Assembly: GCA_028285265.1 (NCBI GenBank)
Contig: JANQPX010000060.1
Span: 1 to 64,000, forward strand
Source: Geminicoccaceae bacterium
GTDB taxonomy: Bacteria; Pseudomonadota; Alphaproteobacteria; Geminicoccales; Geminicoccaceae
Length of the DNA stretch: 64,000 nt
Direction: 5' to 3'
Shown: positions 22,428 to 48,685 of the stretch, piece by piece
Position numbering within the stretch: the stretch's first letter is position 1
Layout of the letters: each line of letters starts with the position of its first letter
Translations under genes and position numbers: made by a program
Notes under the pieces: generated by a model
Database searches by the model: none
The model's input: only the letters and a program-made list of their open reading frames with translations
What the model was told of the DNA's origin: nothing

Positions 22428-23852
22428 CTATGCATGTCTCCAGCGTTTCACCTCATCGGCGATGGGATGCTTTAGAAAAAAGGCGCTCGTCATAAAAGCC
22501 AACAAATAGGGCAATCCAACACAAACCAGGTAGAGGAACGTTCCTAGCCGCCAATGTTCAGCGAATTGGGCAGCCAAGACTCCAACGATGATGGCTGGCA
22601 GAACAACAAGGATGGCATTTGCGAAGGCTCTGATCAGCGCTTTCCGCGTCACATCAATAAGGGTCGGTAGAAAGAACAGATCGGCAAGCGCACCAAGGAT
22701 GGAGGTTCCGACGAGCGCCCAAAGCGCGGGCATGACACCGAATGGTGCGGCGATGATCAGAGCAAAGACCGTGACTGGAGCCAAAAATGACTGGATCTTG
22801 AGCACGATATCGACCCGTCCGTGGGCGATGTAGATCGGCGTAGCCAGCCGCTCAAATGCCGAGCCGAATAAGGCCGCCAGCATCATCGGCGGCACAAATG
22901 CAGCTGCATCGCGCCACTGCTCACCATAGAGAAAAATCAACACCGGCTCAGCGGCAATAATCAAGAACCCGTAGACGCCCATCGCCGTCAGGTTGAGCAT
23001 AGCCTGACCTTTGAGCAGCGGCTCCACGCTGTCAGCACCTGATCGGCGTAGTTCAGCAAAGGCGGGCAAGACAACCGGATATATTCCGGCAATGACCTTG
23101 TCATACAACCTGATGATCGAAAGGGACCGATCTGCGAGGCCAACTGGCGCTGGCCCAATCAAGCGTCCAGCAATGATCGCGAAAGCACCGTCTTTGACCT
23201 CGCGCAGAATGAGGGATCCTGTGGCAACCACAGAAAAGCTTAGAACAGCCAAGACACCGGTGAAGCGTACTCGGAAGCGTTTCAGGTCTGGAACCACGGC
23301 AAGGCAAAAGACTGCGCGGACGAAGCTACTGGTCGTAAGGGCAATCGCAAGGCTGTAAACGCCAAAACCAAGAAAGACCAACGATAGGGCAACAAATGAT
23401 TGAACCAACGAAACAGTAACTTCCATGATCAGAATGGTGTGAAACCGCATCTCCCTTTGCAGTGTTGCAAAGACCGTAGCAACGAAGGGATAGGCCAGAA
23501 AACTGGCCATGATGATCCAGAGAATGGAGGTCACTTCCGGAGCATTGAAGAAGCCACTAGCGAGGGGTGCCATGATCAATAAAATCAATGCAGAGATCAG
23601 GCTCAAAAACGTGGCGGCTGTAAAGGCAGCTTGGAGGACGTCGAGATCATCGGATTGATGCTGGATGATATAGGCGTTGACACCGCCTTCCCTCAGAGCA
23701 TTTAGAAATCCTGTCGAGGCCAACGAAATCGAATAAATTCCAAATTCTGTAGGCGTAAGTTGACGTGCAATGATCAGCATCGCCCCGAAGGAAATAAGCA
23801 TCGTCACATAATTGCTGACAGTTGCCAGCGCCAACGACTTGCGCACGGTCAT
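22428..23852 (-). CDS. Oligosaccharide/lipid-linked glycan flippase (Wzx/MATE-like)
   Basis: A 474-residue integral membrane protein with about 12-14 hydrophobic helices and no obvious soluble domain. The N-terminus (MTVRKSLALATVSNYVTMLI, then ARQLTPTEFGIYSIS) is characteristic of the polysaccharide transporter branch of the MOP superfamily. GEQWRDAAAFVPPM between later helices is also typical. Family members flip undecaprenyl-linked oligosaccharides or other amphipathic glycoconjugates across the inner membrane. It sits next to a glycosyltransferase and the NRPS genes, so it may move a glycosylated product or an unrelated surface glycan. Confidence 0.85.
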   Translation of the reverse strand: MTVRKSLALATVSNYVTMLISFGAMLIIARQLTPTEFGIYSISLASTGFLNALREGGVNAYIIQHQSDDLDVLQAAFTAATFLSLISALILLIMAPLASGFFNAPEVTSILWIIMASFLAYPFVATVFATLQREMRFHTILIMEVTVSLVQSFVALSLVFLGFGVYSLAIALTTSSFVRAVFCLAVVPDLKRFRVRFTGVLAVLSFSVVATGSLILREVKDGAFAIIAGRLIGPAPVGLADRSLSIIRLYDKVIAGIYPVVLPAFAELRRSGADSVEPLLKGQAMLNLTAMGVYGFLIIAAEPVLIFLYGEQWRDAAAFVPPMMLAALFGSAFERLATPIYIAHGRVDIVLKIQSFLAPVTVFALIIAAPFGVMPALWALVGTSILGALADLFFLPTLIDVTRKALIRAFANAILVVLPAIIVGVLAAQFAEHWRLGTFLYLVCVGLPYLLAFMTSAFFLKHPIADEVKRWRHA

Positions 23853-23998: not shown

Positions 23999-25339
23999 AT
24001 GGCTCATATCGCGTTTATCACCAATGGCCTCACCGGCTTGCTTTTCGCAAGTTTCGAAATGGTCCGACGCCTTAGGGCTCATGGCCATCACATCACCTAT
24101 TGGGCACCAGAACTGGCCCGAGATGCCGTGATCCGTGAAGGGTTGCCTTTTCACGCCATCCCCGACTTTCAGGCCAAGGGTGTCACTGAAAGCGACATGG
24201 ATCAAATTGCTGAGAACCTAGACACACATTCCCCAGATCTCGCATTGATCGATACAGAGTTGCCAGAAGTCGTCCTGGCGGCCCAAGCCGCTTGCTTGCA
24301 AACCGTACTCCTCAACACCTGGATGTCTATCTGGCAGCATCCAGGCCTACCCCCACTCCACCGCTCTATACAGCCCGGCGTAGGCTGGCATGGTTCAAGC
24401 ATTGGCGTGAACCTTGCGTGGACGAGGCATCGATTGACCCGTCGCATGAAACATATAGTTCGCCGTTGCTGGCATGGTCGCAAATATCGCGTTACGCGGC
24501 TCAGAGCCTATAGTAACAAGATTGGCTTTCCCCATACCAAAGAGTTCGATTTCGACAACTGGCTCCTTCCATTCTCCTTCAGATCCCTTCCGATTTTGAC
24601 TCTGCACGCCCACGAACTCGATTTCCCGCATACCCCGAGGGATCATGTTCACTATGTTGGACCGATGGTGAACCCTAATCGCCAGGAATCGCCATCCCAC
24701 GCCACCGACCTGGCGATCGTCGAAGCCGTCTTGTCGAGACGCCAGTCCAGCAATACACGCCTCATCTACGGTGGATTTGGCTCGCATTTCATTGCGGATG
24801 ACCGTCTTTTGTCGGCGCTTTTCTCGGCATTTTCGGAACAACGCGAATGGGAATTGATCGCGCCGCTTGGCGATAGGGTCTCGAGCATCGATGTTTCGAA
24901 GAAACCCGCCAATGTCCACTTGGTAACATGGGCACCTCAATTGGCATTGCTGCAACATGCAGATGCCGCGATCATTCACGGTGGCATCAACACAATTGAC
25001 GAGTGCATCCACTATAAGACACCGATGTTGGCGTGTTCTGGTGGCATGACTGACATGCCCGGCAACATTGCGAGGGTCGTCCATCATCGGCTTGGTCTTT
25101 CTTACGACGTCCATCGCGACAGCCCTGAAGCGGTCACGAAAAGCCTTGATCGTGTTATGACGGATCCTGACATCAAAGAAAGCCTCAAGGCCCAACAGTC
25201 AGCTGCGGAACGATATGCCAAGGACAAAGTCCTCGAGTGCATCATCGATGGTTTCCTCGAAGGTGACCTCGCATCATCGGCAGGCGTGCTCACGTTATCT
25301 CGTTCAGCTTCGCCGCAAGCCGCTGCGTCCAGGACTTGA
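23999..25339 (+). CDS. UGT-like (GT1 family) glycosyltransferase
   Basis: A 446-residue GT-B fold enzyme. The N-terminus (IAFITNGLTGLLFASFEMVR) starts an acceptor domain. The donor-site motif WAPQLALLQHADAAIIHGG, followed by INTIDECIHYKTPML, is the signature of the UGT/MGT group that glycosylates small lipophilic acceptors such as natural products. It lies between the flippase (opposite strand) and the NRPS operon, and its 3' end overlaps the convergent end of the terminal NRPS gene by 50 bases. This context makes glycosylation of the NRPS product plausible. No clear ribosome site precedes ATG 23999. Confidence 0.85.
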   Translation: MAHIAFITNGLTGLLFASFEMVRRLRAHGHHITYWAPELARDAVIREGLPFHAIPDFQAKGVTESDMDQIAENLDTHSPDLALIDTELPEVVLAAQAACLQTVLLNTWMSIWQHPGLPPLHRSIQPGVGWHGSSIGVNLAWTRHRLTRRMKHIVRRCWHGRKYRVTRLRAYSNKIGFPHTKEFDFDNWLLPFSFRSLPILTLHAHELDFPHTPRDHVHYVGPMVNPNRQESPSHATDLAIVEAVLSRRQSSNTRLIYGGFGSHFIADDRLLSALFSAFSEQREWELIAPLGDRVSSIDVSKKPANVHLVTWAPQLALLQHADAAIIHGGINTIDECIHYKTPMLACSGGMTDMPGNIARVVHHRLGLSYDVHRDSPEAVTKSLDRVMTDPDIKESLKAQQSAAERYAKDKVLECIIDGFLEGDLASSAGVLTLSRSASPQAAASRT

Positions 25340-28300
25340 CGATCGTTAGATCCCGACGAAACGCAATATGCTCACAATAAAAATGCTCCTCGTCATAACG
25401 CCCTTTCGCAAGCTCTTTCCAAAGATAGCGGCAACTTGTGTCGCGACCGAGAAGCGATCGGAACACGAGTAGTCGACCGGAATAAGGCGACAATTCGTGA
25501 CGTTGGATCGCGAAGTTATAAACGATCCAGGCATAATGGGCTGCAGCACCGGGTGAGAGCCTATAACCCAAGCTGTAGGCCAGCGATCCCTGGGCCAGCC
25601 GAAATGGCCCGCGCACATAACGATAGTATTTTCTGACGATGACATTACATGCTCGAACCATCCAGCCCGGCAGAAAACGCTGTCCTATCTCAGGAACGAT
25701 GGATGGACTTGTTAGTTGAGAGGATGTCGTCGAAACAGCTTTGAGCGTGTCTTTGTCGAGTCCGCGAACACGGCCGAGGAAGTCCATATCATCAGGTGGA
25801 TCGAGAAGAAATAGGACCTCAACCTCTTCGCCAGCGGCCAATAGTCGACGCGCCATCTCAACCGAAGCAGCTGCACCGATAGAATAGCCCCCGAGACGAT
25901 AGGGCCCATGCGGCGAGATATTTCGGAGTTGAACAAGATAGTCATCGGCCATGCTGTCAACGGACGTCAAAGGGCTGAGACAGCCGTCATTCCAATGGTC
26001 TTCAAGAAGGTGAACGGCATGATGCTCCCGAAGTGCATCCTCAAGACACTCGCGCATGCGTTCCCCGCCCTGGACCATAAAGAACGTTTTTCTTGGTGAT
26101 GGTCGGCTTTCCTGTTGTTGCTCGAGCGGTGCCTCCATAGACCGTACCAAAGCCTGAATCGTTGGAAACTCGAGGACGCTTGTCGGTTTAACGTCGAGTC
26201 CCTCACGTCTTGCTAACGACACAATCCTGATGCTCGTCAACGAGTCACCGCCCAACGAAAAGAAGTCGTCGTCTATGCCGACCTGCTTGACCTTGAGCAC
26301 TCGCTCCCAAATTCGAACCAAAGCCGTTTCGGTTGGGTTGGTCGGAGGCTGATAGACGTTTCTCGCTTGTTGGACGGTTTGAGTCTCAGCCAGTTTGGTC
26401 AGTTCTTGACGGTCGACTTTGCCATTAGGCAGCATCGGCATCGCCGACAAGGCGATGATCGTTTGCGGGACCATGGCTTCAGGTAGTCGGCTGGCTATGC
26501 CGGGACGGAACGAGCCCACATCATCTCCGCGGTCCTCAACAAAGGCAGTGAGGCGGACACTATTCTCGTTGATTGCTGACGCAATCACTGCCGATGCCGT
26601 TCCAGAAATCGCTGTAAGTACGGCTTCTATCTCAGCAATCTCAACGCGATGCCCCCTCATCTTCAGCTGGCCATCCCGCCTGCCGAGATAGTCAAGTGTC
26701 CCATCCGTCCGCCAACGTGCAACATCGCCGGTTCGATAGAATCGGCCGCCGCTGTCCCCAGGTTCTAGCGGAAAACGCGATGCCGTCATCTCAGGCTTTC
26801 CGAAATACCCTAGCGCGACGCCCGGACCGCCGACCATGATTTCGCCTGGGACGGCAGCAGGTGTCTGACGGCCACGGTGGTCCACCAATTTGATCGCCGT
26901 GCCGGGAATCGGTTGCCCTATTGAGGGCACCTGGTTCGTCGGCATGTCAGTAATGTCCGATACGGTGCACCAAACCGTCGCTTCCGTTGGGCCGTATTCG
27001 TTGATCAGCCTTGCCGCCGGCAAGACCGTCCGGTGGCGCACAGGCAAAGCGGCGGGACATGTTTCGCCAGCGACGATGGCATGGCTCAGCGATGCAAGCT
27101 TCGTTGGGTCGCCATAGTCGATAAGGATCGCATAGAGGGATGGCAAACAGAGCAGATGGGTCACCTGGTATCTATAAATGAGCGCGGTCAGATGCTCGAC
27201 ATTTTGCTCTGAGCGGTGCTGGGCAATAACGAGCGTCCCACCTGTCGATAGAGTCCAGAACAACCCTGCAACGGAACTGTCAAAGGATAGAGATGACATC
27301 AGCAAGAACGCACTCGGCGGCTCGCCATAGTGGCTCAGTCTTGCACCATTGGAATAAGCAAGGTTGGATCGGCTGACGACCACGCCCTTTGGATGTCCAG
27401 TCGAACCTGAGGTGTAGATGATGTAGGCGGGGGTTTCCGGAGGGGGCTTTGATCGGGTCCGCAGTTCCTCAGTGACGGCTTCGATCCGATCCAAATCAAC
27501 CTTGTCGAGTTGATCGAGCGTTTGCGTACTGGCTCCGGCAACGACGACAATGCGCGCCTGGCTGTCCTCGATAATCGCTACGCGCCTGGCGTGAGGATAG
27601 GTCGGATCCAGCGGCACATAGGCAGCACCCGCCATCAAAACAGCAAGGATTCCAACGATAGCTTTCGGGCCACGGTCGACGTGAACAATCACTGGCTCGC
27701 CAAGCTTGACGCCTCGGTCCATCAAGGTTCGGGCTGCGGATTGAGCCGTGTTGACGAGCTCAATGTAGGTTAACTTCTGATCGTGATCAGCAACGGCAAT
27801 GGCGTCTGGATGAAGAGTGGCCATTGCTTCAATCATGTCGACAACATCATCGACAGGATGTTTGAGATCGCCACCATTTCCGCGTCGAGTGAGTTCCTGC
27901 CGCTCAGCGACAGGAAGGTCGTCGATCGTCGCTAAGGTTGCATCAACGTCGCGAGCGATTGCCTTTGCCGTCTCGACAACGGCGATGACCAATTGTTCAC
28001 CAAGACTAATGTCAAATCGCGATGGATCCGTGACCGTGCTGACGACCAGACCTCCCTTGCCATCAGGATCGATCAGCAGGGCAAGCGGAAACGTACTTGG
28101 TGCTTTGATATCCAATGATCGCAGGTGCAATGTTGCACGTTGTCTGTCTTTTGCTGGTGGATAATTTCCGAAGACATAAAGGCAGTCGAATAGAGCCTCA
28201 CCAGGCGGCACATCGCTCCAGCTCTGGATCTGAGAGAGAGGAGCCTGTTCGTGCTGCCGTATCATCGTCGCATCGTCTTGAAGATGCTTCAGAAACGTTC

Positions 28301-29264
28301 GAACGGCATCGTTGTGGTGGATCTTAGCCCGCATCGGTGTTGTCGTGACCAAGAGCCCAATCATTCGCTCAATATCGGGCACATCGTCGGGGCGACCGGA
28401 TGATACGACGCCAAAGACGACATCATCTGCTGACGTGTAACGGCTCAGGACCAGAGCCCATGCGGCTTGAAACAATGTATTTAAGGTGACGCGTGATGAT
28501 GCTGCAGCTGAAACAATCGGACTCAAAACGTCAGCATCGATGCGATGTGACCAATACTCCCGGCGTTCGGATCGTTGGCTTTGATCGCTTGGTCGCGCCG
28601 CATCGATGACGCTTTGGCGCCTAAAGCCCTTGAGATAGCGACGCCAAAACTGCTCGTCAGCGCTAGCATCCCGTCGTAGCAGCCAGGCGATATGGTTACG
28701 ATAAGGAGGCGCTTTTGGGAGCAGCGTGTTGTGGGCATTCGCGCATGACAGAAGTTCCTCAAGTGCAATGCCGATAGACCAGCCATCTGCGATCACATGG
28801 TGGCAGGCCCAGACCATGCGATGATCATCCGCTGCCAACGAAAACACATCAACGCGGCACAGCGGCGCTGCAGCAAGATCAAATCCAACTATGGATTCTT
28901 GCCAGAGCCAGTCATTCAACTTCTTCTCTGATTCGCTTGCCGATAGCGCGGTCCAATCATGATGGCGGACGGGCATTTCAAGGGTCTTACGGACCACTTG
29001 CATCGGTGCGTCGAGCCCTTCCCAAACAAACGCAGTGCGCAGGGCCGGATGACGTGCCAGGACCTCCCTCCAAGCCCGGCGGAACATTTCCATGTCGAGC
29101 TTGCCGCCCAAATGGCAAACAATACGGCCGACATGCATGGTTGTGTCAGGTTTGGCAATTGCGTGAAAAACCATACCTTCCTGGAGCGGCGTCAACGGGT
29201 AGATATCTTCGACATTGTCGAGAGCCGAAGCCGCGGTCTCCTTTTTTAAATCCGACGCCGTCAT
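25290..29264 (-). CDS. Nonribosomal peptide synthetase, C-A-PCP-TE termination module
   Basis: A 1324-residue final module. The condensation domain opens with DIYPLTPLQEGM and has an intact CHHVIADGWS active site. The adenylation domain shows YIIYTSGSTG, INEYGPTEATVW and an RTGD motif. Reading the specificity pocket by eye gives DSACIAEVW plus the invariant Lys, which I cannot assign to an amino acid. The carrier domain has FFSLGGDSL (phosphopantetheine Ser near 1008). A thioesterase fills about 1059-1324 with GGYSIGA (Ser near 1128), FLLDPPDD and a late His in CEHIAF. I chose ATG 29264, ten bases after the upstream NRPS stop, over a TTG at 29303. Last gene of the operon. Confidence 0.93.
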   Translation of the reverse strand: MTASDLKKETAASALDNVEDIYPLTPLQEGMVFHAIAKPDTTMHVGRIVCHLGGKLDMEMFRRAWREVLARHPALRTAFVWEGLDAPMQVVRKTLEMPVRHHDWTALSASESEKKLNDWLWQESIVGFDLAAAPLCRVDVFSLAADDHRMVWACHHVIADGWSIGIALEELLSCANAHNTLLPKAPPYRNHIAWLLRRDASADEQFWRRYLKGFRRQSVIDAARPSDQSQRSERREYWSHRIDADVLSPIVSAAASSRVTLNTLFQAAWALVLSRYTSADDVVFGVVSSGRPDDVPDIERMIGLLVTTTPMRAKIHHNDAVRTFLKHLQDDATMIRQHEQAPLSQIQSWSDVPPGEALFDCLYVFGNYPPAKDRQRATLHLRSLDIKAPSTFPLALLIDPDGKGGLVVSTVTDPSRFDISLGEQLVIAVVETAKAIARDVDATLATIDDLPVAERQELTRRGNGGDLKHPVDDVVDMIEAMATLHPDAIAVADHDQKLTYIELVNTAQSAARTLMDRGVKLGEPVIVHVDRGPKAIVGILAVLMAGAAYVPLDPTYPHARRVAIIEDSQARIVVVAGASTQTLDQLDKVDLDRIEAVTEELRTRSKPPPETPAYIIYTSGSTGHPKGVVVSRSNLAYSNGARLSHYGEPPSAFLLMSSLSFDSSVAGLFWTLSTGGTLVIAQHRSEQNVEHLTALIYRYQVTHLLCLPSLYAILIDYGDPTKLASLSHAIVAGETCPAALPVRHRTVLPAARLINEYGPTEATVWCTVSDITDMPTNQVPSIGQPIPGTAIKLVDHRGRQTPAAVPGEIMVGGPGVALGYFGKPEMTASRFPLEPGDSGGRFYRTGDVARWRTDGTLDYLGRRDGQLKMRGHRVEIAEIEAVLTAISGTASAVIASAINENSVRLTAFVEDRGDDVGSFRPGIASRLPEAMVPQTIIALSAMPMLPNGKVDRQELTKLAETQTVQQARNVYQPPTNPTETALVRIWERVLKVKQVGIDDDFFSLGGDSLTSIRIVSLARREGLDVKPTSVLEFPTIQALVRSMEAPLEQQQESRPSPRKTFFMVQGGERMRECLEDALREHHAVHLLEDHWNDGCLSPLTSVDSMADDYLVQLRNISPHGPYRLGGYSIGAAASVEMARRLLAAGEEVEVLFLLDPPDDMDFLGRVRGLDKDTLKAVSTTSSQLTSPSIVPEIGQRFLPGWMVRACNVIVRKYYRYVRGPFRLAQGSLAYSLGYRLSPGAAAHYAWIVYNFAIQRHELSPYSGRLLVFRSLLGRDTSCRYLWKELAKGRYDEEHFYCEHIAFRRDLTIVKSWTQRLAAKLNEIT

Positions 29265-29274
29265 CGAGTCTCTA

Positions 29275-32200
29275 CTAAGATTCGATCTTGTGCGATGAGC
29301 CAAGCGCTTCTGCTATTGCGCTAAGCCCCTCAGCCCCAAGTCCTGAAAGTGCGAAGGGGGCCGGATCGTTATTGTCCGGGAGAGCTATCGCCGTATCAGC
29401 GTCAGCACTGATCGCAGCAGCTAGTTGGGCAATGGTCTGATGCTGGAAGATTAATGCCGGCGCGAGTTCGACACCGCTCCTTCGTGCGCGGGCGGCAATT
29501 CTTATTGCAGCGATAGAGTCACCACCAAGTTCGTAGTAATTATCGTCCACACCCGGCCGCTCGATACGAAGTATATCTGCCCAAATCGCACAAATCTTTA
29601 CCTCAATCTCAGTCGAAGGCGCCCTGTAGGCACTTGGTTGTGTGTGTGCAACTTTGTCTGGCAGCGGCAGAGCTCCAACGTCAACTTTGCCATTGGTCGT
29701 GAGTGGGATGGCGTCCAGGCACATCACCCGTGACGGAATCATTTCTAGCGGCAGGCATTCCTTCAGCAAGCTTCGTAGATGTGATGCCGGTGTATTGGGG
29801 TCGGATACGACATAGGCAGTGAGTTGCATCTCATTGGACGTCTCAAAGAGATCGTCAGCGTCATAGCCTATATCCTTGAGTATGCGTCGCACCCGTGCGA
29901 CGTCGATATCGTCATTTAATTCATCGAGCGCTGCATCGCGCTCCTTGTGTCCCATGCGAACGTCCCAGGAGTAAGGGAGTGCATAATTGTGGAAGCCTTG
30001 CCGCCTTTTGTGAACGTAGATGCCGACATCATTGATCAGACAATTGGATGACCGACCTGTGTCGTCCGGGCGTCGCCACGGCAGCCGTTCATGCAAGTAA
30101 CGATAGATCTCATCGAGGGATACGTCGCAGTAGCGATAGAAATCAACAAATTGGATTTGCTCAAAGGTGGCATCATCTTTGACGGCTCGAACATCGAGAA
30201 GCTGTGACACGGCGTCATTGGTGCGGTGATAGGCTTTCCGTGCTTCCAGTACCATCGCCTCAATGGCCGCACAGCTTACAGGACCGGACTTAAACAGTTC
30301 GGGTGTCAGACGCGTTTCAAAGAATTGGCCACGCGACAGACCTGTCACGATGATCGGAGCACCGACCTCGATGGCCGTCTGCATGGCGAGCGCGTAGATG
30401 GTCTTGAAGCAACCATTGCAGACATTCGAATGTCGTTTCAGGCTGTCAATAAAGATTGCGTTCATCGCCGCTGTCGACACATAACGATGTTCGACGCCAA
30501 GCAGCTCGGTAACACGTTGGATATTGTCTTTGGCACCGTCGGACAGATAGCCGTTGTCCAAGGTCAATGCGAGAATGCGCGGCCTCATCTCGGCGACTCG
30601 TGCGAGCGCATAGATGCTGTCCTTGCCTCCCGATGTCAAAACGATACAGTCATAGTCGCCGGTCGCCCGATGGTGAGCATCGGTCAAAATGGCGGCCAGG
30701 GCCTCCATATCGCTGAAATAGACATCGGCACGACTCCGATAGCTCTCCAGCTCCCGACAGATTGAACATACCTGGCTTTCGTCGATCGTCGCCTCGGGAT
30801 AGTCGGAAGAAAGGCCGCAGCGCATGCAGTAGACGTCACTTGAGCCAGCCTTGATCGGTCGTTGCTCCTGCGGCGCAGCGTGGGCCAAAACAACAGCGTC
30901 GCTGACACCAGGAAGCTGTGCGAGCGCTTGCTCGATTTCTCCAAGTTCGATCCGTACACCGCGTAATTTGATCTGCCGATCCGACCGACCAAGAAAGTCG
31001 AGTTGTAGACGGTCATTGAACCTCGCGAGATCCCCGGTGCGATAGAGACGCTCGCCCGCATGGAACGGATCGTCGATGAAGCGTTCGTCGGTGAGATCTT
31101 CTCGGCCCACATATCCTCTCGCCAACCGATTGCCACCGATAAAGACCTCGCCAGGAACCCCTTGCGGAACCGGGTTCATACCTGCATCGAGTACATAGAT
31201 CCGCATTCCGTCCGCCGGCGCACCGATCGGCACCGAGACACCAGTATCGTCTCCGGGCTCGAAGCGATGAACCATGCAGCCGATGACCGCTTCTGTCGGT
31301 CCATATTCATTGAAAATAGCGATGTCTCGTCCAAGTCGATCGAGCGCACGCGTTGCCAATTGCGTCCTGAGATCCTCACCCCCAAGAATCAAGGTTCTAA
31401 TCGTTTGTGGAGGACCAGCATGTTCCGCAACAAGCGCAAGATGGGCCGGCGTAAGTTTGACGATATCAACCCTATCCTCGTCGAAGACATCGAGGACTGA
31501 GAGGTCCCCACCCTCCAACGGCTCCTGATAAACAACAACCGACCCACCACTTATCAATGGCAGGAAGAGCGAGGTCAGCGTCAGGTCAAATCCGATCGCC
31601 GTAAATAGCGGCATAGAAACTGCCCTGTTGCGACCGTAGACGGATCCGGCCCATGTGAGATAGGCTGCGAGTGCTCCATGCTCGACCTCGACACCTTTTG
31701 GCTGACCCGTCGATCCAGACGTGTAGATGACGTAGGCCATGTCGGTTGGGTCGGCGATGCGAAATGCAGTCTCCGATGTCCGGCTCGGCGGCGCATCGAC
31801 TTCGAGCACAGGTGCTGCCTGTCCCTCCAAGCGATGAATAAGCGATGGATCCGCGACGATGGCAGCAACTACAGAGTCGGCGACCATGTAAGAAAGCCGG
31901 TCTTGCGGCAAATGAGAGTCAAGGGGAAGGAACGCAGCGCCTGTCTTCATGACGCCCAGAACCGCCACTGGGTAGGCCATCGACCGTCTCATGTGAACGC
32001 CGACGATAGCGCCAGGCCGAACACCCATCGCCTTAAGCTCTGCAGCGATCGCGTCGGACCAATCATTCATGGCCGCGAAGGTGAGCGTCTCTTCTCCGAA
32101 AATCACAGCTGGCACGTCTGCTGATGATAACACAGCCTTTCTGAAGAGAGAGAGCACGGTCTCTTCACCAACGCCGACCGAGGCCGCTCGATTGTACGTT

Positions 32201-33522
32201 TTCAAATGCGCCACTCGCTCCGATTCTGTGACGATCGGAACCGCATCGATTGGCTGATCGAAGTTGTCCAGCATGGCGTTCAGGATGACTACGAAATGGT
32301 CCAAAATGTTCGATCTCAATGGCTCTGGAAAGACACCGCATTTGAGATCCATGGCCAGAACCGGAACACCGTCGCCATTCATATCCATGACGTGCAAGCG
32401 CAAATCATGGCCTGTATCCATGGCTCCGGTCGATAGCCACTCGACTCGGCGCGTCAGCCCGCTGACCTCGGGAAACGCCACGTTGATATAGTTCATTATG
32501 ATGTTGAAGGACCGCGCCGACTCAGCCGACGCAGCACCGGCTTGGCTGAAACGCATGTGCTCCATGTTCGCTGCTGCGACCTTGTCATAAAGCGTATGGA
32601 AGGTCTCACCTTCATCGAGTTCTGCAACGAATGGGAAAACCTCGACGAGCAAGCCGGGTAGCCTCTTCAGGAGAAGCGTCGAGCGGTTGTGCGCCGGCGT
32701 TCCTATGGTGATCTTTCGCTGATCCGTGACACGCGCCAGATAGGCGAAAAGAGCCGTAACAAATAGATTGAAACGCGTAAGATGGATCGAAAAGCTTCGA
32801 ACGCCATCCGTCTGAGATAACGACGTGAGGCTCTCGACTTGCGAATCCGTCAGGGAGCGAACAAGCCTAACAGTCTCCGTGGAGGCCTCAATATTTCGCC
32901 GGTTGTAAGGACGGGGCAATCCAGTTGAGCTTTCAGCAATACGACGCCAATGGTCCGCCGCAGCCTGTCCCTGATCACTCGCTCGAAATTCCTGCTCTTC
33001 AAGGACAAAGTTTTGGAACATCGGGAGTGGATCCGACGGCATAGCCAGACCTGAACGAAGCGCCTCTAAATGCTCGCAAAGGGCTTCGAACAGGACCGCG
33101 ACAGACCATGCATCGGTAACGATGTGATGTTGACTCAAGAAAAAGACCTGATGATTGTCCCCAAGTTTGAGGAGAGCAGCATCGTAACTTGCCCGACCGA
33201 GGTCGAATGGTTTCCTACTTCTTGTCTCGATATGGGATTGAGCTTGTTCCTCGGGATCCGTCAACGAAGATAGGTCAATATGGTCGAGAGGCTTTGGTGC
33301 CTCTGCCGAAACATCTTGGTAGATCCCATTCGGCGTCTCGCGGAAAATCGTACGCAAGACATCCGTACGTTCGACTAACCGCTCGAAGGCTTGCGTAAAG
33401 TGACTTGGGCTAAGCGGCCCAATCAAATCGATACGCCAGGCTTGATTGTAGAGCGGAACATCGCCAGCCAAGGCCTGACCAGTCCAGAACAATTCTTGAC
33501 TTTTAGTGAGCTGACGCGTCAT
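29275..33522 (-). CDS. Nonribosomal peptide synthetase, C-A(Asn)-PCP with inserted WbpG-like PP-loop domain
   Basis: A 1415-residue elongation module. A condensation domain (HHIVTDAWS) covers about 1-440. The A domain follows (AYVIYTSGSTGQPKG, FNEYGPTEA, RTGDLARF, QIKLRGVRIELGEIE). My by-eye pocket code is DLTKIGEIG plus Lys, close to the known asparagine code DLTKLGEVGK. Between A8 and A10 (LTTNGK, about 1279) the domain is interrupted by about 330 residues: CxxC...CxxC (from 899), the PP-loop SGGKDS (964-969), CNGC (1035-1038) and a tail like sugar amidotransferases. A carrier domain follows (YELGGDS, Ser near 1336). ATGA overlap with the carrier gene upstream. Confidence 0.93.
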   Translation of the reverse strand: MTRQLTKSQELFWTGQALAGDVPLYNQAWRIDLIGPLSPSHFTQAFERLVERTDVLRTIFRETPNGIYQDVSAEAPKPLDHIDLSSLTDPEEQAQSHIETRSRKPFDLGRASYDAALLKLGDNHQVFFLSQHHIVTDAWSVAVLFEALCEHLEALRSGLAMPSDPLPMFQNFVLEEQEFRASDQGQAAADHWRRIAESSTGLPRPYNRRNIEASTETVRLVRSLTDSQVESLTSLSQTDGVRSFSIHLTRFNLFVTALFAYLARVTDQRKITIGTPAHNRSTLLLKRLPGLLVEVFPFVAELDEGETFHTLYDKVAAANMEHMRFSQAGAASAESARSFNIIMNYINVAFPEVSGLTRRVEWLSTGAMDTGHDLRLHVMDMNGDGVPVLAMDLKCGVFPEPLRSNILDHFVVILNAMLDNFDQPIDAVPIVTESERVAHLKTYNRAASVGVGEETVLSLFRKAVLSSADVPAVIFGEETLTFAAMNDWSDAIAAELKAMGVRPGAIVGVHMRRSMAYPVAVLGVMKTGAAFLPLDSHLPQDRLSYMVADSVVAAIVADPSLIHRLEGQAAPVLEVDAPPSRTSETAFRIADPTDMAYVIYTSGSTGQPKGVEVEHGALAAYLTWAGSVYGRNRAVSMPLFTAIGFDLTLTSLFLPLISGGSVVVYQEPLEGGDLSVLDVFDEDRVDIVKLTPAHLALVAEHAGPPQTIRTLILGGEDLRTQLATRALDRLGRDIAIFNEYGPTEAVIGCMVHRFEPGDDTGVSVPIGAPADGMRIYVLDAGMNPVPQGVPGEVFIGGNRLARGYVGREDLTDERFIDDPFHAGERLYRTGDLARFNDRLQLDFLGRSDRQIKLRGVRIELGEIEQALAQLPGVSDAVVLAHAAPQEQRPIKAGSSDVYCMRCGLSSDYPEATIDESQVCSICRELESYRSRADVYFSDMEALAAILTDAHHRATGDYDCIVLTSGGKDSIYALARVAEMRPRILALTLDNGYLSDGAKDNIQRVTELLGVEHRYVSTAAMNAIFIDSLKRHSNVCNGCFKTIYALAMQTAIEVGAPIIVTGLSRGQFFETRLTPELFKSGPVSCAAIEAMVLEARKAYHRTNDAVSQLLDVRAVKDDATFEQIQFVDFYRYCDVSLDEIYRYLHERLPWRRPDDTGRSSNCLINDVGIYVHKRRQGFHNYALPYSWDVRMGHKERDAALDELNDDIDVARVRRILKDIGYDADDLFETSNEMQLTAYVVSDPNTPASHLRSLLKECLPLEMIPSRVMCLDAIPLTTNGKVDVGALPLPDKVAHTQPSAYRAPSTEIEVKICAIWADILRIERPGVDDNYYELGGDSIAAIRIAARARRSGVELAPALIFQHQTIAQLAAAISADADTAIALPDNNDPAPFALSGLGAEGLSAIAEALGSSHKIES
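29836..30828 (-). other. PP-loop ATPase domain inserted in an adenylation domain
   Basis: Codons about 899-1229 of the second NRPS. The order of motifs (two CxxC pairs, TSGGKDSIYAL, LDNGYL, VCNGCFK, a GLSRGQFF turn, NCLINDVGIYVHKRRQGFHN, then DVRMGHKERDAAL) matches WbpG/PseA-type N-acetyl sugar amidotransferases of the adenine nucleotide alpha-hydrolase superfamily. The insertion site between A8 and A10 is where methyltransferase domains interrupt A domains elsewhere. The chemistry here (amidation, amidine formation or thiolation of carrier-bound Asn) is unknown. Confidence 0.85.
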
Positions 33523-33752
33523 GCAGTCGTTCGCTTTCCGAGATAGGCGGCAATTGTGTCTACCGATGTAAAGTTCTCGATGACCACATCCTGTGGCGGC
33601 ACTTTCACACTGAACGCCGTTTCGAGATGCATGACCAAGCGCATGACGTTCATCGAATCGAGAAGGCCAGAAAGTAACAGATCGTCATCGTCGCTTATGC
33701 TCTTGCCTGAAAGAAGGTGGTCAACAATGAATGTTCGGATGTGGTCTTTCAT
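33519..33752 (-). CDS. Stand-alone peptidyl/acyl carrier protein
   Basis: A 77-residue carrier protein with the phosphopantetheine site in LLLSGLLDSMNVMRLV (Ser near 33) and the usual four-helix pattern ending in DTIAAYL. Its ATG overlaps the stop of the adenylation gene (ATGA), and its stop overlaps the NRPS start in the same way. This tight coupling argues that it carries the starter unit activated by the adjacent stand-alone adenylation enzyme and hands it to the condensation domain of the next protein. Confidence 0.92.
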   Translation of the reverse strand: MKDHIRTFIVDHLLSGKSISDDDDLLLSGLLDSMNVMRLVMHLETAFSVKVPPQDVVIENFTSVDTIAAYLGKRTTA

Positions 33753-35368
33753 GGTTTTGGCTTTCCATCAAACCTTCGCTCCCTGACGAGATGTCGTAGA
33801 GCGCGGCGATCGATTTTGTCCGTTGCCGTTCGCGGTAAGGTCGGGGCGACGACCACGTGTTCTGGCACGGCATAAGGAGGAAGCCGACGCGCCGCGTCGG
33901 CCTTGACCTCTTCTGAAATGCCTGAATCAAAGCCTGCATTCAACGTCAGGACAGCGGTGATCAAGTCATGACCGTCATCACCTTGAATAAGGATGGCGGC
34001 AACTTCGTCAACGGCGGGATGACATGCGGTAGCGGCTTCCACCTCGTCGAGTTCAATCCGAAAACCACGCAGTTTGATCTGGCGGTCTTGTCGACCCAAA
34101 AATCGAAAGACACCACCGCCCTCATCGACCACGACATCGCCTGTTCGATAAAATAGCTCCGTCACATCGGCTGTCTTACGGCGGACGTAAAATGCCTTAC
34201 TGTCGAGTTCGGGTCGTCGCCAGTAGCCGGCCATCATCGTCGGACTACTCACCAATAACTCGCCGGATTCGCCGCACTTGACTTCTCTGTCGTCGCCATC
34301 CACGACCAACGCCTCAGCGCCGTTCCAGACCTGACCGATCGGTGGCGGGCGATCGTCAGTGATATCGCCCATTTCAATGTGGTGATAGGTGCATTGGTTG
34401 GTCTCGGTAGGACCGTAGGAATTACTAAAGCGAGCTGTCGGTAGCGACGCCATCAGAGCATGGAGGTGTTTTGCCACGAACGGCTCACCAGCAAAAATCA
34501 CCCAGCGAAGTGTACTCAGATCACGCTGATCGAGCACGCCGCCTTGCAAAAGTTGAGTCAAGGCAAAGGGCACGGAGTACCAATGCGTGAGCCGCTCGTC
34601 TTGGATCAGTTTCGACAGGCTTGCCGGCAGCTTCGTGTAGGGCTCAGGGATGATGATCGTACAGGCACCGCGGATCAGGCCACTGACATAGTCGAAGATC
34701 GACATATCAAAATGAAGCGGCGGATGATTGCTTAGCCGATCGCCATGCCGGACCTCGTAAACATCCGCGGCCAGGTTCGCATAGGCGAGACCGCTTTTAT
34801 GCGAGTGCATGATGCCTTTTGGTATGCCGGTCGATCCGGACGTGAAGAGGATATAGGCCAGATCATCCGGATCAACTTTAGACCGCAACAATGGACCGGC
34901 TCGATGTACGTCAGCCCAGCTAATCATAACCGAGGCAAACGACGGGGAATCGTCAGCTCCAATGACGCATTGAAGCCTGCGACATCCATCGCCGCTCTGC
35001 AAAGCCACCTCAAGATCCCTCGCCTTTGGCGGATGAGTAATCACGACATCGATCCCACACTGCTCAATGATCGCCCAGGTACGAGCAGGTGGCGCTGCAG
35101 GATCAAGAGGGACGTAAATGGCACCAGCCTTCAGTACGCCATAGAGTGAGATCACGGATTCGATCGATTTATTGAAGTAGAGCCCTATCCGATCTCCATG
35201 CCGCACCCCCTGCGCCAACAGCGTTGCGCCAAGCCGATCGCTCTGCTCTGCAAGGCCCTCATAAGACAAAATAGCCTTGGCGAATTTCAGCGCGGGCGCC
35301 TGAGGAAATCGCTCAGCCGCTGTGTCCATTGCGGTATCGATGAGCATTGTCACGCTACTTGGTGCCAC
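33749..35368 (-). CDS. Stand-alone amino acid adenylation enzyme (starter loading)
   Basis: A 539-residue adenylation enzyme with no carrier or condensation domain. Core motifs are YILFTSGSTGIPKG, FDMSIFDYVSGLI, NSYGPTETNQ, YRTGD and QIKLRGFRIELDEVE, with the catalytic lysine in TATDKIDRRAL. The pocket read by eye is DMFSIASQC plus Lys. This partly resembles the proline codes of PltF/RedM-type enzymes (D, hydrophobic, F, then A and C in the same places) but is more polar, so the substrate may be proline-like or something else. It starts at GTG 35368, seven bases after the HupE-like gene; ATG 35347 is an alternative. Its substrate likely goes to the adjacent carrier protein. Confidence 0.88.
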   Translation of the reverse strand: MAPSSVTMLIDTAMDTAAERFPQAPALKFAKAILSYEGLAEQSDRLGATLLAQGVRHGDRIGLYFNKSIESVISLYGVLKAGAIYVPLDPAAPPARTWAIIEQCGIDVVITHPPKARDLEVALQSGDGCRRLQCVIGADDSPSFASVMISWADVHRAGPLLRSKVDPDDLAYILFTSGSTGIPKGIMHSHKSGLAYANLAADVYEVRHGDRLSNHPPLHFDMSIFDYVSGLIRGACTIIIPEPYTKLPASLSKLIQDERLTHWYSVPFALTQLLQGGVLDQRDLSTLRWVIFAGEPFVAKHLHALMASLPTARFSNSYGPTETNQCTYHHIEMGDITDDRPPPIGQVWNGAEALVVDGDDREVKCGESGELLVSSPTMMAGYWRRPELDSKAFYVRRKTADVTELFYRTGDVVVDEGGGVFRFLGRQDRQIKLRGFRIELDEVEAATACHPAVDEVAAILIQGDDGHDLITAVLTLNAGFDSGISEEVKADAARRLPPYAVPEHVVVAPTLPRTATDKIDRRALRHLVRERRFDGKPKP

Positions 35369-35375
35369 GGAGGCA

Positions 35376-36590
35376 CTATAGTCCCAATGCGCTCTTTATT
35401 GGTTCATGGATCGGACCCATCACATCGAACGTTCGCTCGACAAACCACAGACCGGCGACGGCGATCATGGCAACGGAACCAGCCTGCAAGACCACCGGCT
35501 TATAAACTGGTAGACGGCGAATCAGATAGAGAAGCGGGAAAGCCGCCATCACAACGATTAACTGCCCTATTTCGACGCCAATGTTGAAACCGGAAAGTGC
35601 AGCCAGAAGAGAGTGGCCTTGTGCTCCTAACGGATCCAGGACGTTGGCGAAGCCGAATCCATGAAACAGGCCGAGAATAAAGACGATTGACCAGGTTTTG
35701 TTTGCGATGAACGGATAAAGATTGTTGAAAGCGGCAATCGCGATCGAAAGCGCGATGACGGCCTCAACCAACATCACGGGTAATCTGACGATGCCAAGCG
35801 CTGCCAGCGTTAACGTGATGGTATGGGCCACCGTGAACAGGGTGACGACCTTCACAACAAACCAGAATGGCTCGCGAAAGCTCGGAGCAGGCGTCCACTT
35901 TCCGGAACGCACGACCATGACGGAGGCAAGAAGCAGCGAGAGAAGGAAGAGAATATGGTCATAGCCGATAGGCACGATGTGGTAGATGCCCTCTCCCACA
36001 AAGCGGCCGAAGATCACCCAACTTGAGACACCGTCGACGTTGAACGATTGCCGACGACGTTCTTCACCAAAAATGAGGGAATGCTGCGCTTCGTTCTCAA
36101 CAATGCCTGCACGCGTATTGCTCTCGATAAGAAGAAGTCCGCGATGATTGCGATCAACCCCGTCAAAGAGAAAACGATAGTCTGCCTCAAGCGTTTCAGG
36201 CGGCCGGTTCAGACTGGGTACGTCAAACTGAACCTGCACGAAGATATCGAAGCCTGCGCCGTCAAAGAACTGATGACCAGTTACCTCAACCGGATGCGCA
36301 ACATCACCGTCGTAAAAGACCAAACGCGGCTGCAAGTATTCATAGACCTGCTGAGCATTCGAATCGAACTCATCCTTGCTAATGGTGCCATTGCCATCGA
36401 CATCAAGTGAGATCGCTTTGTCCAGCTCCTGGAACGGGATTTCGAAGCGTCCGGAAAGGCTTGTTTCGGTTACGTTTAGATAAACATAACTTTCACCTGT
36501 GCTATGGGCCCTCGCTTCACCGGACAGCCCGATAGCCGCGCTGACGATGATGAGCAAGCCTAACATTCGCTTAAACTGACGATAGAGCAC
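35376..36590 (-). CDS. HupE/UreJ-like membrane protein with EF-hand-like motif
   Basis: A 404-residue protein with a signal peptide (cleavage near EARA), a periplasmic region of about 180 residues and six to seven C-terminal helices. The membrane part has the HupE/UreJ_2 hallmarks IGYDHILFLLSL, FTVAHTITL and GLFHGFGFANVL. Several histidines in these motifs could bind metal. The soluble part carries LDVDGNGTISKDEF, an EF-hand calcium-loop pattern. HupE/UreJ relatives are nickel/cobalt permeases or metal-linked accessory proteins. It is placed between the acyl-CoA dehydrogenase (38 bases) and the adenylation gene (7 bases), so it belongs to the NRPS operon. Function there is unknown. Confidence 0.85.
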   Translation of the reverse strand: MLYRQFKRMLGLLIIVSAAIGLSGEARAHSTGESYVYLNVTETSLSGRFEIPFQELDKAISLDVDGNGTISKDEFDSNAQQVYEYLQPRLVFYDGDVAHPVEVTGHQFFDGAGFDIFVQVQFDVPSLNRPPETLEADYRFLFDGVDRNHRGLLLIESNTRAGIVENEAQHSLIFGEERRRQSFNVDGVSSWVIFGRFVGEGIYHIVPIGYDHILFLLSLLLASVMVVRSGKWTPAPSFREPFWFVVKVVTLFTVAHTITLTLAALGIVRLPVMLVEAVIALSIAIAAFNNLYPFIANKTWSIVFILGLFHGFGFANVLDPLGAQGHSLLAALSGFNIGVEIGQLIVVMAAFPLLYLIRRLPVYKPVVLQAGSVAMIAVAGLWFVERTFDVMGPIHEPIKSALGL

Positions 36591-36628
36591 GATGTTCCCC
36601 TTATCCCCGACGTTCTGGTCTTGTCCGA

Positions 36629-37786
36629 TCAGCTCTTGAGGAGCTGCGCGATGATCTGTCTTTGGATGTCGGATGTGCCTGAGTAAATGACGCCGCCGAT
36701 CGCATCACGTAAGTCTCGCTCAATGCCAGTCTCCGAGAGATAGCCTTTGCCACCGTGAATGCGGATCGCATCAAGGCTCGATTCGACGAATGCTTCCGAC
36801 ATATGCAGATTAGCGAGGGCGGCCTCCACGGGACACGACTGGCCCTGGGCCTTCAACCAAGCCGCCTTGTAAAGAAGAAGCTGGGCCGTCTCTAGGCGCA
36901 GCTTCATATTAGCAAGCCGGTTTGACACCGATTGAAACTGATCAATTGGTTGATCGAAGACAATGCGACTGCGGGCAAAACCAACGCAATCGTCAAGCTG
37001 ACGGCGCATTGATCCGACATGGCTTGCAAGAATGAAGCTCCGTTCCCACTCCATTATATGCTGAAAGATGGCGAGCCCCGCTCCCTCGCGACCGAGGCGC
37101 GCCTCCTTTGGTATGCCGCAGTTTTCGAAGATGAACTCGCCCATCGGCGTTGTCCGCAAGCCCATTTTCTGTTGCGGCGGACGACGGATAAACCCTGAGG
37201 TCTCTGCGTCGACCAAAAAGGCCGATATGCCCCATGACCCTCGATCGGGCGCGGTCGAAGCAAAGACCAGGGCTACATCACACGAGGGGCCCAGGCCGAC
37301 ATAGGCCTTAGCACCGTTGAGTACATAACCTCCGTCGATCGGCTCGGCGGTCGTCTTAATACCGGCTGCGTTTGAACCCGCCCCATGTTCTGTCATGCTT
37401 ACGGCTCCAATGATTGAGCCATCGCATAGTCCAGGCAGATAGCGACGTTTTTGATCATCCGTGCCGAATGAGAAGATTGGTTCCTGGACCGCCCAAATCT
37501 GCCCATTGGCCACAAGGGTGAGCCCGTTATCCCGACAGCCATAACCGATCGCTTCTAGAATCAGAATCGATGTCAGGATGTCTCGTCCGCGCCCTCCATA
37601 TTCCTCAGGGATTGATAGGCCAAAAATCCCAAACTCTGCACATTTGCGCCAGTCTTCACGCCAGGTCTCAAGGTTGTCGCTACCGGATTGGTCTCGATGC
37701 ACGAGATCGCGCCCCAGATGTTGGGCCGCGAAACGTTGCGCTTCGTCGCGAAGCGCCAGCTGCTCGTCGCTCCAAGAGAAATCCAT
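36629..37786 (-). CDS. Acyl-CoA dehydrogenase-like flavoprotein of the NRPS operon
   Basis: A 385-residue acyl-CoA dehydrogenase family enzyme. FAD/substrate motifs include GAVSMTEHGAGSNA and RIHGGKGYLSETGIERD. The usual C-terminal base of MCAD-type enzymes (Glu in YEGTS) is replaced by Ser in IYSGTSDIQ (S369). A Glu in EWERSFILA (E248) sits where isovaleryl-CoA dehydrogenase keeps its base. In pyrrole pathways (PltE, RedW) such flavoproteins oxidise prolyl-carrier protein made by a stand-alone A enzyme. Here the first gene of an operon with exactly such an A enzyme and carrier protein, it is a candidate oxidase for the carrier-bound starter. Ordinary fatty or branched acyl-CoA oxidation remains possible. 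Confidence 0.87.
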   Translation of the reverse strand: MDFSWSDEQLALRDEAQRFAAQHLGRDLVHRDQSGSDNLETWREDWRKCAEFGIFGLSIPEEYGGRGRDILTSILILEAIGYGCRDNGLTLVANGQIWAVQEPIFSFGTDDQKRRYLPGLCDGSIIGAVSMTEHGAGSNAAGIKTTAEPIDGGYVLNGAKAYVGLGPSCDVALVFASTAPDRGSWGISAFLVDAETSGFIRRPPQQKMGLRTTPMGEFIFENCGIPKEARLGREGAGLAIFQHIMEWERSFILASHVGSMRRQLDDCVGFARSRIVFDQPIDQFQSVSNRLANMKLRLETAQLLLYKAAWLKAQGQSCPVEAALANLHMSEAFVESSLDAIRIHGGKGYLSETGIERDLRDAIGGVIYSGTSDIQRQIIAQLLKS

Positions 37787-38164: not shown

Positions 38165-39115
38165 CTATTCAGTCGTCAAGCTTAGCCCAAGGGCATGCTC
38201 GATCTCCGCGGCTTGCAACATGCCTCTCGATGAGTGGCCAACGCCTCCTGCAATGACGAGCCTCCAGGAAAATGGCCAATCTCGCGAGCGAGCCAGATCT
38301 CGCGCCATCTCATAGACGAATTGAGCTCGCTCGAACCGGTTGACGCCTTGCCGCATAGCAGCCTCATTGGACACCAGGTTCTTGCGTCCCGTGTCGTCGC
38401 TGCCGACGTAAAGTGTTATTGGAAGATCAAGATAGCCCTGAAGGTCCGGTTCGCTGTTGAGGGCATTAGAAATCTTGCCGAAACCGTAAGGAACGGGCTC
38501 AGTAAGTGATGGAAGCACGTGAACCGATGGGTTCGCAATCAGGATCCGTTCGGCATCAGCAGGCGGAGAATACGCCGAGACCCTTGAAAGGAATTGACCT
38601 CCTGCGGAGTGGCCAAAAAGGAAGTAACGGGCATTCGCATCGCCGAGCCAATGACGCGCCCATGTCACGAGGGCGTCGACCTTATAGCCGGTCCAACGTT
38701 CGCGAGGCTGAACTCGGCCTTTGCGAAAGACACCCGCCCGATGGTAGCGCCAATTGGGAAACGTCTGCTCATCGAAAAGAGGCGCGATCACAGCTAGGCA
38801 AGCCCGATCTGCCAAGGGGCGCGCCCTACGACGCATTTTTGAGGCCTTTCTGCCCTTACCGTGAAAGACCAGCAGAAGGCTAGGCGAAGCGCAGTGTTGC
38901 GGACGATAGGTGAAAACTGAGATGACGTCATTGCCGAGCTTGACCTCGAATTGGTCATGGCCTGAATCCCGCGCGAGAACGGACGACGTCATCAACGACA
39001 AGATGAGTGCGAGTAACAAGCCCACCCAAGTCATCGTCACCACGGGCGCCAATGAAGCGTGATATCCAGGGGCGAAACCACCAAAAGCTCCCATCTTCCA
39101 GCAGCTCTGGTTCAT
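38165..39115 (-). CDS. Alpha/beta hydrolase with N-terminal membrane anchor or signal
   Basis: A 316-residue alpha/beta hydrolase. LLLVFHGKGR gives the oxyanion region, YFLFGHSAGGQFLSR the nucleophile elbow (Ser), and VGHSSRG near the end the probable catalytic His. A hydrophobic segment (about 24-48: PVVTMTWVGLLLALILSLMT, then SSVLA) suggests export to the periplasm or membrane anchoring. The overall pattern resembles polymer or peptide ester hydrolases but I cannot assign a substrate. The ATG overlaps the stop of the cyanophycin synthetase-like gene (ATGA), so it is the last gene of the exporter operon. It could trim or hydrolyse the exported product. Confidence 0.85.
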   Translation of the reverse strand: MNQSCWKMGAFGGFAPGYHASLAPVVTMTWVGLLLALILSLMTSSVLARDSGHDQFEVKLGNDVISVFTYRPQHCASPSLLLVFHGKGRKASKMRRRARPLADRACLAVIAPLFDEQTFPNWRYHRAGVFRKGRVQPRERWTGYKVDALVTWARHWLGDANARYFLFGHSAGGQFLSRVSAYSPPADAERILIANPSVHVLPSLTEPVPYGFGKISNALNSEPDLQGYLDLPITLYVGSDDTGRKNLVSNEAAMRQGVNRFERAQFVYEMARDLARSRDWPFSWRLVIAGGVGHSSRGMLQAAEIEHALGLSLTTE

Positions 39116-41403: not shown

Positions 41404-41407
41404 AGCG

Positions 41408-44496: not shown

Positions 44497-44503
44497 GGGA
44501 TCT

Positions 44504-45700: not shown

Positions 45701-46221
45701 TGTCGATGTCTCATTCACCGGCGGCGCTACCGGTTGCATTTCTGGAGCCAGCCATCTGGACGTGACTCTACTTTGCCCTTTTCAAAGGACGCTCACGTCT
45801 GATGAAAAGCCAGTTTTCATAAGACAAAAGGCGATCGTCATTGGCATCAGCACAGGATTCGACAGTTCTTTGACATCGCCATCATCTGCTCTGTCTTCAT
45901 CAACTCAAGGGTCCCGGTCCGGGAACGGCAGGTGCTTGCCAGCGGGACGTCCCAATTCGTAAATCTCATCGTGTGCCAGCCGATCACTAAGCCGAGACCG
46001 CTATTGACCCACTAAAACAACACCCGGAGATCGCTGTTTCTTTTTTTGGCTGCAAAAAACTTTGAGATTTTTTTCTGAAGAAAAAAACAAAGTGCATAGC
46101 CGGCGTGTTGTTCAACAGATCGAGATCATCGCCAGGCGGCTGTGAAATATGCCTTTCGACATTGGGGGAATTGAGCGATGCGCCAACGCTCAAGTCATCC
46201 CAGGAATATTCGGTCGGCCAC
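45701..46221. other. Divergent promoter region between the two cyanophycin synthetase-like transcription units
   Basis: About 520 bases between the P-loop gene (minus) and the synthetase-like gene (plus). It holds a strongly AT-rich stretch around 46035-46095, including a long inverted repeat. The codons upstream of 46222 (from GTG 46105) are open in the same frame but not conserved with the paralogue. Confidence 0.5.
46059..46093. repeat. AT-rich inverted repeat in the divergent promoter region
   Basis: ACTTTG-AGA-TTTTTTTC pairs with GAAAAAAA-CAAAGT around a TGAA loop (8 + 6 bp with a 3-base bulge on the left arm). It could be an operator shared by the divergent units or, since runs of T follow on both strands, a bidirectional attenuator. 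Confidence 0.55.
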
Positions 46222-48677: not shown

Positions 48678-48685
48678 GAGCCTTC

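Follow-up and report, generated by a model that had tools for sequence, protein, structure and literature searches.

What does a compact set of nonribosomal peptide synthetase (NRPS) genes make, and to what end, when an extra enzyme is buried in one of its synthetases and a putatively metal-linked membrane protein is encoded in its midst? The question is raised by an operon at 25290-37786 (minus strand) of a 64,000-nucleotide stretch, hereafter the window, comprising positions 1 to 64,000 of contig JANQPX010000060.1 from a Geminicoccaceae bacterium (GCA_028285265.1). The original prediction for this DNA had proposed a six-gene operon making a tripeptide, starter-Asn*-X, from an oxidised starter, a modified asparagine and an unassigned last residue. 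Our analysis gives roughly even odds to a more specific answer, in which the cluster makes a short (dehydro)Pro-Asn*-His peptide, most likely an extracellular copper (or nickel) binder. All six predicted genes are present at these coordinates, adjacent genes overlap or sit at most 40 bases apart, and a Pfam search confirms the domains given below for condensation (C), adenylation (A), peptidyl carrier protein (PCP, or T) and thioesterase (TE) functions.

36629-37786, minus strand: flavoprotein (385 aa), prolyl-carrier-protein dehydrogenase-like (AnaB/PigA/RedW/PltE group)
35376-36590, minus strand: HupE/UreJ-2 membrane protein with an N-terminal periplasmic domain (Pfam PF13795)
33749-35368, minus strand: stand-alone A enzyme, proline predicted (PltF match, code DMFYIASQC)
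33519-33752, minus strand: stand-alone carrier protein, 77 aa, DSM site (PF00550, 37.2 bits)
29275-33522, minus strand: NRPS1, C-A(Asn)[AMDH]-PCP, 1415 aa, code DLTKIGEIG, C motif HHxxxDA
29830-30861, minus strand: AMDH-type PP-loop domain within the NRPS1 A domain, SGGKDS
25290-29303, minus strand: NRPS2, C-A(His, predicted)-PCP-TE by Pfam, code DSACIAEVW

The listed start of NRPS2 is a TTG, and an internal ATG 39 bases downstream is another possibility. No condensation domains were found elsewhere in the 8.5 Mb genome beyond those of NRPS1 and NRPS2.

The A domain of NRPS1 holds a PP-loop insert of ~340 residues (about 885-1231) with an SGGKDS motif and three CxxC pairs. In pairwise alignment the A8 region (LRGVRIELGEIE) is followed by the insert and then by LTAYVV and NGKVD (A10), and placement between the A8 region and A10 is repeated in related loci; an ortholog (G031), from a different family within the class, is laid out in the same way, with 44% identity over NRPS1 (residues 4-1373) and 53% over the insert. 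The insert is 55% identical to a domain of a 941-aa A-AMDH-T protein of Xanthomonas albilineans (L066), which we take to be AlbIV. In CysH the domain was named AMDH, and the accessible text of Gross et al. (2021, PMC7966384) describes its conversion of carrier-bound Asn into beta-cyanoalanine or, depending on prior hydroxylation, isoasparagine. Judged by its sequence, the insert is an AMDH domain of the CysH/AlbIV type, with predicted Asn dehydratase/aminomutase activity, and Asn* in the product is probably cyanoalanine. NRPS1 matches NCBIfam WbuX (TIGR03573) over residues 898-1208, but a plain sugar amidotransferase was rejected, since the score is 100.8 bits against a cut-off of 203.2, and an additional cysteine triad accompanies the shared zinc-type cysteines.

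Relatives of this domain were sought in 84,980 species genomes; the best 80 of at least 145 confirmed are 51-64% identical to it, and 77 loci with the AMDH in frame (window included) were analysed. The SGGKD ATP motif occurs in 77 of 77 AMDH sequences, and the pocket code of the host A domain is of the Asn type in all 72 scored, as DLTK or DLSK with GEV or GEI. An Asn specificity of the host domains is also stated in PMC7966384, whose accessible portion places all AMDH homologs within Asn A domains and, as of 2021, ties none of them to a product. In a tree of the A-AMDH region built by a quick method, the albicidin- and cystobactamid-like rows (L066, L068) branch from within the rest of the family, and the window stands beside roseobacterial loci. 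The original reading of NRPS1 as C-A(Asn)-PCP thus had the Asn code right and overlooked the embedded, conserved PP-loop domain. The condensation motif of NRPS1, HHxxxDA, is found in 56 of the 65 proteins with a readable motif (DG in L027, L060 and L084) and may mark a specialised starter condensation. In 13 other loci (including L011, L014, L015, L018 and L051; the window is not among them) NRPS1 ends with an epimerisation-like domain, AMDH-T-E, so that Asn* would be D there.

Within the AMDH domain seven cysteines stand out. C899, C902, C922, C1035, C1038 and C1161 are invariant in 77 of 77 sequences and C919 is present in 76; C899, C902, C919 and C922 are of zinc type, and C1035, C1038 and C1161 resemble the [4Fe-4S] type known from LarE and TtuA, with whose CxxC the AMDH CxxC aligns in a profile search of the PDB. 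Among bona fide WbuX proteins (20 fetched, 15 usable after a motif filter) the four zinc-type cysteines are common, whereas by the lists of commonest residues the positions of C1035, C1038 and C1161 hold Cys in 0 of 15. The AlphaFold model (mean predicted local distance difference test score, pLDDT, 93.2) has as its nearest fold the sugar amidotransferase 8wex (Z 20.5, 308 residues), followed by LarE (Z 13.9), NcsA with a [4Fe-4S] cluster (13.7) and the nitrile synthetase ArtA (13.4). Because 8wex is the nearest fold and the LarE/TtuA-type cysteines are present, AMDH looks like an amidotransferase scaffold with a predicted LarE/TtuA-type cluster site. PMC7966384, in its accessible part, describes CysH as dark brown and leaves the AMDH mechanism open since no CxxCxxxC motif was seen; a [4Fe-4S]-type triad could account for that colour. 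The invariant triad suggests, in concrete terms, which metal and which mechanism might lie behind the dehydration of Asn on the albicidin and cystobactamid pathways.

The gene set around this domain recurs in dozens of genomes, and the six-gene arrangement is therefore not a matter of chance, although the loci were chosen by likeness to the window AMDH, so that common neighbours partly reflect shared descent of the cluster. The 77 loci cover eleven named phyla and contain a flavoprotein (41), a HupE-like protein (44), a stand-alone A enzyme (49), a His-type second A domain (43, including two partial codes) and a GT1 glycosyltransferase (15); the corresponding counts for the 43 loci of at least 18 kb are 30, 33, 32, 29 and 13. 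Gene order and strand differ between loci. The cluster is thus a member of a phylum-spanning orphan family, and a rare one: among 398 Pseudomonadota genomes the only match listed is the window's own. Two of three plasmid matches are roseobacterial, and in one of these the cluster has a UDP-glycosyltransferase and a flippase as neighbours; plasmids may therefore move it. A scan of neighbours (113 of 165 candidate proteins) returned phosphopantetheinyl transferases (9/113), ornithine cyclodeaminases (9/113) and polysaccharide-flippase domains (5/113). Five acidobacterial and myxobacterial loci (L036, L029, L038, L045, L020) carry a sulfotransferase gene, several with a family-2 glycosyltransferase as well, so their product may undergo sulfation. 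At 12001-12939 of L129, a plasmid of Streptomyces sp. NBC_01216, a divergent AMDH relative (39.8%) has an asparagine synthase, two acyl-CoA dehydrogenases and a tyrosine aminomutase in its vicinity, in what is apparently a different orphan cluster.

The code of NRPS2 bears on the last residue. DSACIAEVW shares 8 of 9 residues with the His signature DSALIAEVW(K), listed as His-activating (DSALIAEVWK) in the accessible part of PMC12283262, and the NRPS2 A domain is accordingly predicted to activate His. The pattern DS...AEVW recurs in the second A domain of 41 of 50 loci scored, exactly as DSACIAEVW in 23, and L053, L079 and L091 read exactly DSALIAEVW at the nine positions. The code had been read correctly in the original prediction and left unassigned; one residue separates it from the published one, and the predicted tripeptide keeps its Asn while its X gains a His-type code. 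That the domain instead activates another amino acid, leaving a peptide that is no X-X-His chelator, we consider improbable: a literature search on code strings did not find DSACIAEVW in print and variants such as DSVAMAEVW occur in Acidimicrobiales, but the eight shared residues and the three exact matches speak for His.

For the starter, the placement of the flavoprotein in a tree had been set beforehand as the check on which the predicted PltE/PltF/PltL-type cassette could fail. The tree separates 12 ordinary acyl-CoA dehydrogenases at 100/100, which rules out an ordinary enzyme of that kind, and joins 30 of the 32 cluster enzymes to AnaB (94/93); PltE-type 5zw0 and a PigA-like enzyme branch next to these, and the other two cluster enzymes (L036, L045) fall outside the AnaB-joined group. 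The window enzyme thus lies on the prolyl-carrier dehydrogenase side, nearest AnaB and not PltE. AnaB (4irn) is also its best PDB match at 382.5 bits, ahead of 5zw0 (266.2) and ordinary enzymes (at most 244), and its NCBIfam scores against PigA (365.9 bits, cut-off 500) and RedW (346.4, cut-off 650) suggest a relative of both and an equivalog of neither. E248 falls in the column of the catalytic Glu of AnaB and PltE, while S369 occupies the place of the catalytic Glu of medium-chain acyl-CoA dehydrogenase (MCAD). The best single-domain match of the stand-alone A core is PltF (6o6e, 150 bits), above a second proline ligase (7thn, 99) and two-domain LgrA entries (93), and this top match, with the tree, supports the cassette. 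Its pocket reads DMFYIASQC, with Tyr and not the Ser previously reported at position 278; D, F, Y, I, A and C are common with the 7thn pocket when read by eye. An ornithine cyclodeaminase-family gene near the flavoprotein in 10 loci fits a proline starter.

The link to metal comes from the membrane protein that the original prediction had left unnamed: it scores 151.7 bits against PF13795 (HupE_UreJ_2; gathering score 24.5). His29, His204, His212, His256 and His310 are invariant in 23 aligned HupE-like proteins. In most of 15 sequences inspected, His29 comes after the AxA-like end of a signal peptide, hence it is the likely mature N-terminus. Residues 30-196 of the HupE-like model (pLDDT 87.2) match 9gce (Foldseek E 1.9e-4; VIA Z 10.9, 144 aligned, 11% identity), with the zinc-binding ZrgA/PA4063 folds at Z 7-9; by its PDB title, 9gce is the copper-bound Ang-1 domain of a HupE/UreJ-2 protein. 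In 100 whole Pseudomonadota genomes HupE_UreJ_2 gives 25 above-cut-off rows, so that a HupE-like gene in 33 of 43 such short stretches, on a rough comparison, greatly exceeds what chance would give, and HupE and the His module recur together across phyla. TonB receptor plug domains, in 8/113 neighbour proteins scanned, count in the same direction. A nitrogen donor at the start of a peptide with His in third place, the amino-terminal Cu(II)- and Ni(II)-binding (ATCUN) pattern, is a strong Cu(II)/Ni(II) ligand. An X-X-His peptide beside a HupE-like protein suggests a copper (or nickel) chelator, and the pattern with its partner proteins makes a copper or nickel carrier, in our judgement, the best single reading.

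The enzyme families, their order, the codes, the insertion and its conservation can be read from the DNA and suggest an assembly line, whose reactions, released structure and metal role we infer in each case. The stand-alone A enzyme would load L-proline onto the small carrier, where the flavoprotein would oxidise it to pyrroline or pyrrole. NRPS1 would activate Asn, whose side chain the embedded AMDH would dehydrate on the carrier, with ATP, to beta-cyanoalanine (isoasparagine or a thioamide being alternatives), and its C domain would join the starter to Asn*. NRPS2 would add His and its TE would release the peptide. Glycosylation by the GT1 enzyme may follow, and the HupE/UreJ-type protein would then handle the metal at the membrane.

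Several observations weigh against a (dehydro)Pro-Asn*-His metal carrier. We know of no compound from any of these loci, and a nitrile adds little to metal binding. Fifteen of the 77 AMDH loci, five of them with long flanks, have neither flavoprotein nor HupE nor His module. The code from which His is assigned differs at one residue from the published one, and because the nearest flavoprotein is AnaB, the oxidation may be of two electrons only, so that the starter may be a pyrroline or a pyrrole. The copper link of the HupE-like protein comes from fold comparison alone, at 11% identity; sequence searches of the PDB returned only weak matches such as EF-hands, and nickel or cobalt is often the metal linked to HupE/UreJ proteins (accessible parts of PMC9973294 and PMC5557971). 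A TonB receptor cluster occurs in 8 loci, mostly Bacteroidota, with no receptor recognised in the window. Riboswitch control was set aside, Rfam finding no riboswitch, metal-responsive or other, near the cluster in the window or in 7 loci.

Set against its rivals, the fullest version of this reading is one that we advance tentatively, as possible and somewhat less probable than the main reading itself: an undescribed, phylum-spanning family of NRPS copper-gathering (dehydro)Pro-Asn*-His peptides, ATCUN-like in their X-X-His form, with Asn* (a nitrile, even a thioamide) made by an A-domain-embedded [4Fe-4S] PP-loop enzyme and the metal received by a HupE/UreJ copper domain with an N-terminal His. 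The strongest competitor of the metal-carrier reading, unlikely yet close enough to deserve weight, keeps the same peptide chemistry and makes the product an antibiotic or signal, HupE/UreJ then serving resistance or standing by as an unrelated membrane protein. Both characterised AMDH products, albicidin and cystobactamid, are antibiotics (PMC7966384 and an albicidin review, in their accessible portions), the AlbIV-type and CysH-like rows fall within the tree of the family, and GT1 scores to macrolide-inactivating families, if below cut-offs; but the AlbIV/CysH-type loci (L066, L068) are without flavoprotein, HupE and His module, and HupE and His modules recur together across phyla.

A slightly less probable competitor concerns the embedded enzyme, which may go beyond the nitrile to isoasparagine (CysH-like, after hydroxylation) or, through its [4Fe-4S]-type cysteines, to a thioamide. 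CysH AMDH does yield isoasparagine, the triad resembles those of the sulfur-inserting LarE and TtuA families, thioamides are formed on a carrier protein by CtaC, an enzyme of this superfamily (PMC6772006, accessible part), and a thioamide would suit copper; yet the X. albilineans AMDH (L066) has the same cysteines and serves a nitrile product according to what is accessible of the albicidin review, the window shows no recognisable CysJ-like hydroxylase, and none of the families among the neighbour proteins scanned stands out as a sulfur donor. As for starter-Asn*-X with X unassigned and no embedded enzyme, its gene content and Asn code are correct, but the PP-loop insert is clear to see and conserved, and the code for X is of the His type, which leaves this version highly improbable. 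The copper or nickel carrier keeps its place as the reading we prefer.

Two genes flank the operon on its downstream side:

23999-25339, plus strand: GT1 (UDPGT/macrolide type) glycosyltransferase, convergent, its 3' end overlapping NRPS2 by 50 bases
22428-23852, minus strand: MOP-family flippase (Polysacc_synt_3, by Pfam), cluster membership uncertain

Glycosylation and export by these neighbours had also been proposed. The GT1 enzyme, one of the 15 recurrent relatives, is likely part of the cluster. Flippase-type families do appear among the scanned neighbours, as noted, but no relative close to the window flippase turned up in the loci, and it was dropped as a conserved partner, showing no significant BLAST similarity to the Roseovarius flippases. 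Upstream, 38165-45739 (minus strand) may be an export block, with an HlyD protein, an ABC transporter and three proteins without Pfam matches (763, 411 and 316 aa); the HlyD/ABC genes are not recurrent at other loci and were rejected as cluster members. Farther on lie an 801-aa protein with ATP-grasp matches at two places (46105-48510, plus strand) and a group II intron (48601-49495, minus strand; Rfam D1-D4-7 at 49168-49318, catalytic core at 48601-48679) with a 269-aa HNH-domain open reading frame at 48686-49495.

Compared with known systems, the individual parts are of known kinds. How they are combined, how widely the combination is spread, and the cysteine triad are new so far as open-licence literature shows: in open-licence full texts we found no account of the cluster family, no iron-sulfur role ascribed to AMDH and no X-X-His metallophore made by an NRPS. 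CysH and AlbIV likewise have the SGGKD-bearing PP-loop domain placed inside an A domain specific for Asn, and fall in one tree with NRPS1, but they are free-standing A-AMDH-T proteins without a C domain that feed para-aminobenzoic acid (PABA) peptides, whereas NRPS1, as C-A-AMDH-T, would act in line between a proline starter and a His module; it therefore carries an AMDH domain and is not classed as a CysH/AlbIV protein. The PltE/PltF/PltL and AnaB/AnaC cassettes likewise have a stand-alone A enzyme, a carrier and a flavoprotein of the right families, and the window differs in feeding its starter to an NRPS with an AMDH and in a flavoprotein nearest AnaB.

WbuX/8wex, an N-acetyl sugar amidotransferase, resembles AMDH in fold, zinc-type CxxC...CxxC and PP-loop, and differs in having no FeS-type triad, with AMDH below its family cut-off. 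LarE, TtuA and NcsA approach AMDH in fold (Z 12-14), and LarE and TtuA in the aligned CxxC, the third AMDH Cys being invariant; against these and CtaC stand the closer 8wex fold, the nitrile as known AMDH product and a cluster that is predicted. CtaC (closthioamide) belongs to the same PP-loop superfamily according to the accessible text of PMC6772006, and was set aside as closest relative, the likeness being that paper's superfamily description and not an alignment. The window HupE shares with the 9gce protein its family name and a periplasmic-domain fold from the mature N-terminus, its copper binding being predicted from that fold. Methanobactin is a small peptide that gathers copper. The same role, proposed here, is ascribed to the diisonitrile chalkophores and chalkophomycin in the accessible literature; the chemistry in the window would differ from all three in being X-X-His, and neither a gene for an isonitrile synthase nor one for a ribosomal precursor was recognised here. 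Beside these systems, and across eleven named phyla, the wider AMDH family now has a set of conserved companion genes, a core predicted to consist of three residues, and a proposed part in the handling of copper or nickel that can be put to the test.

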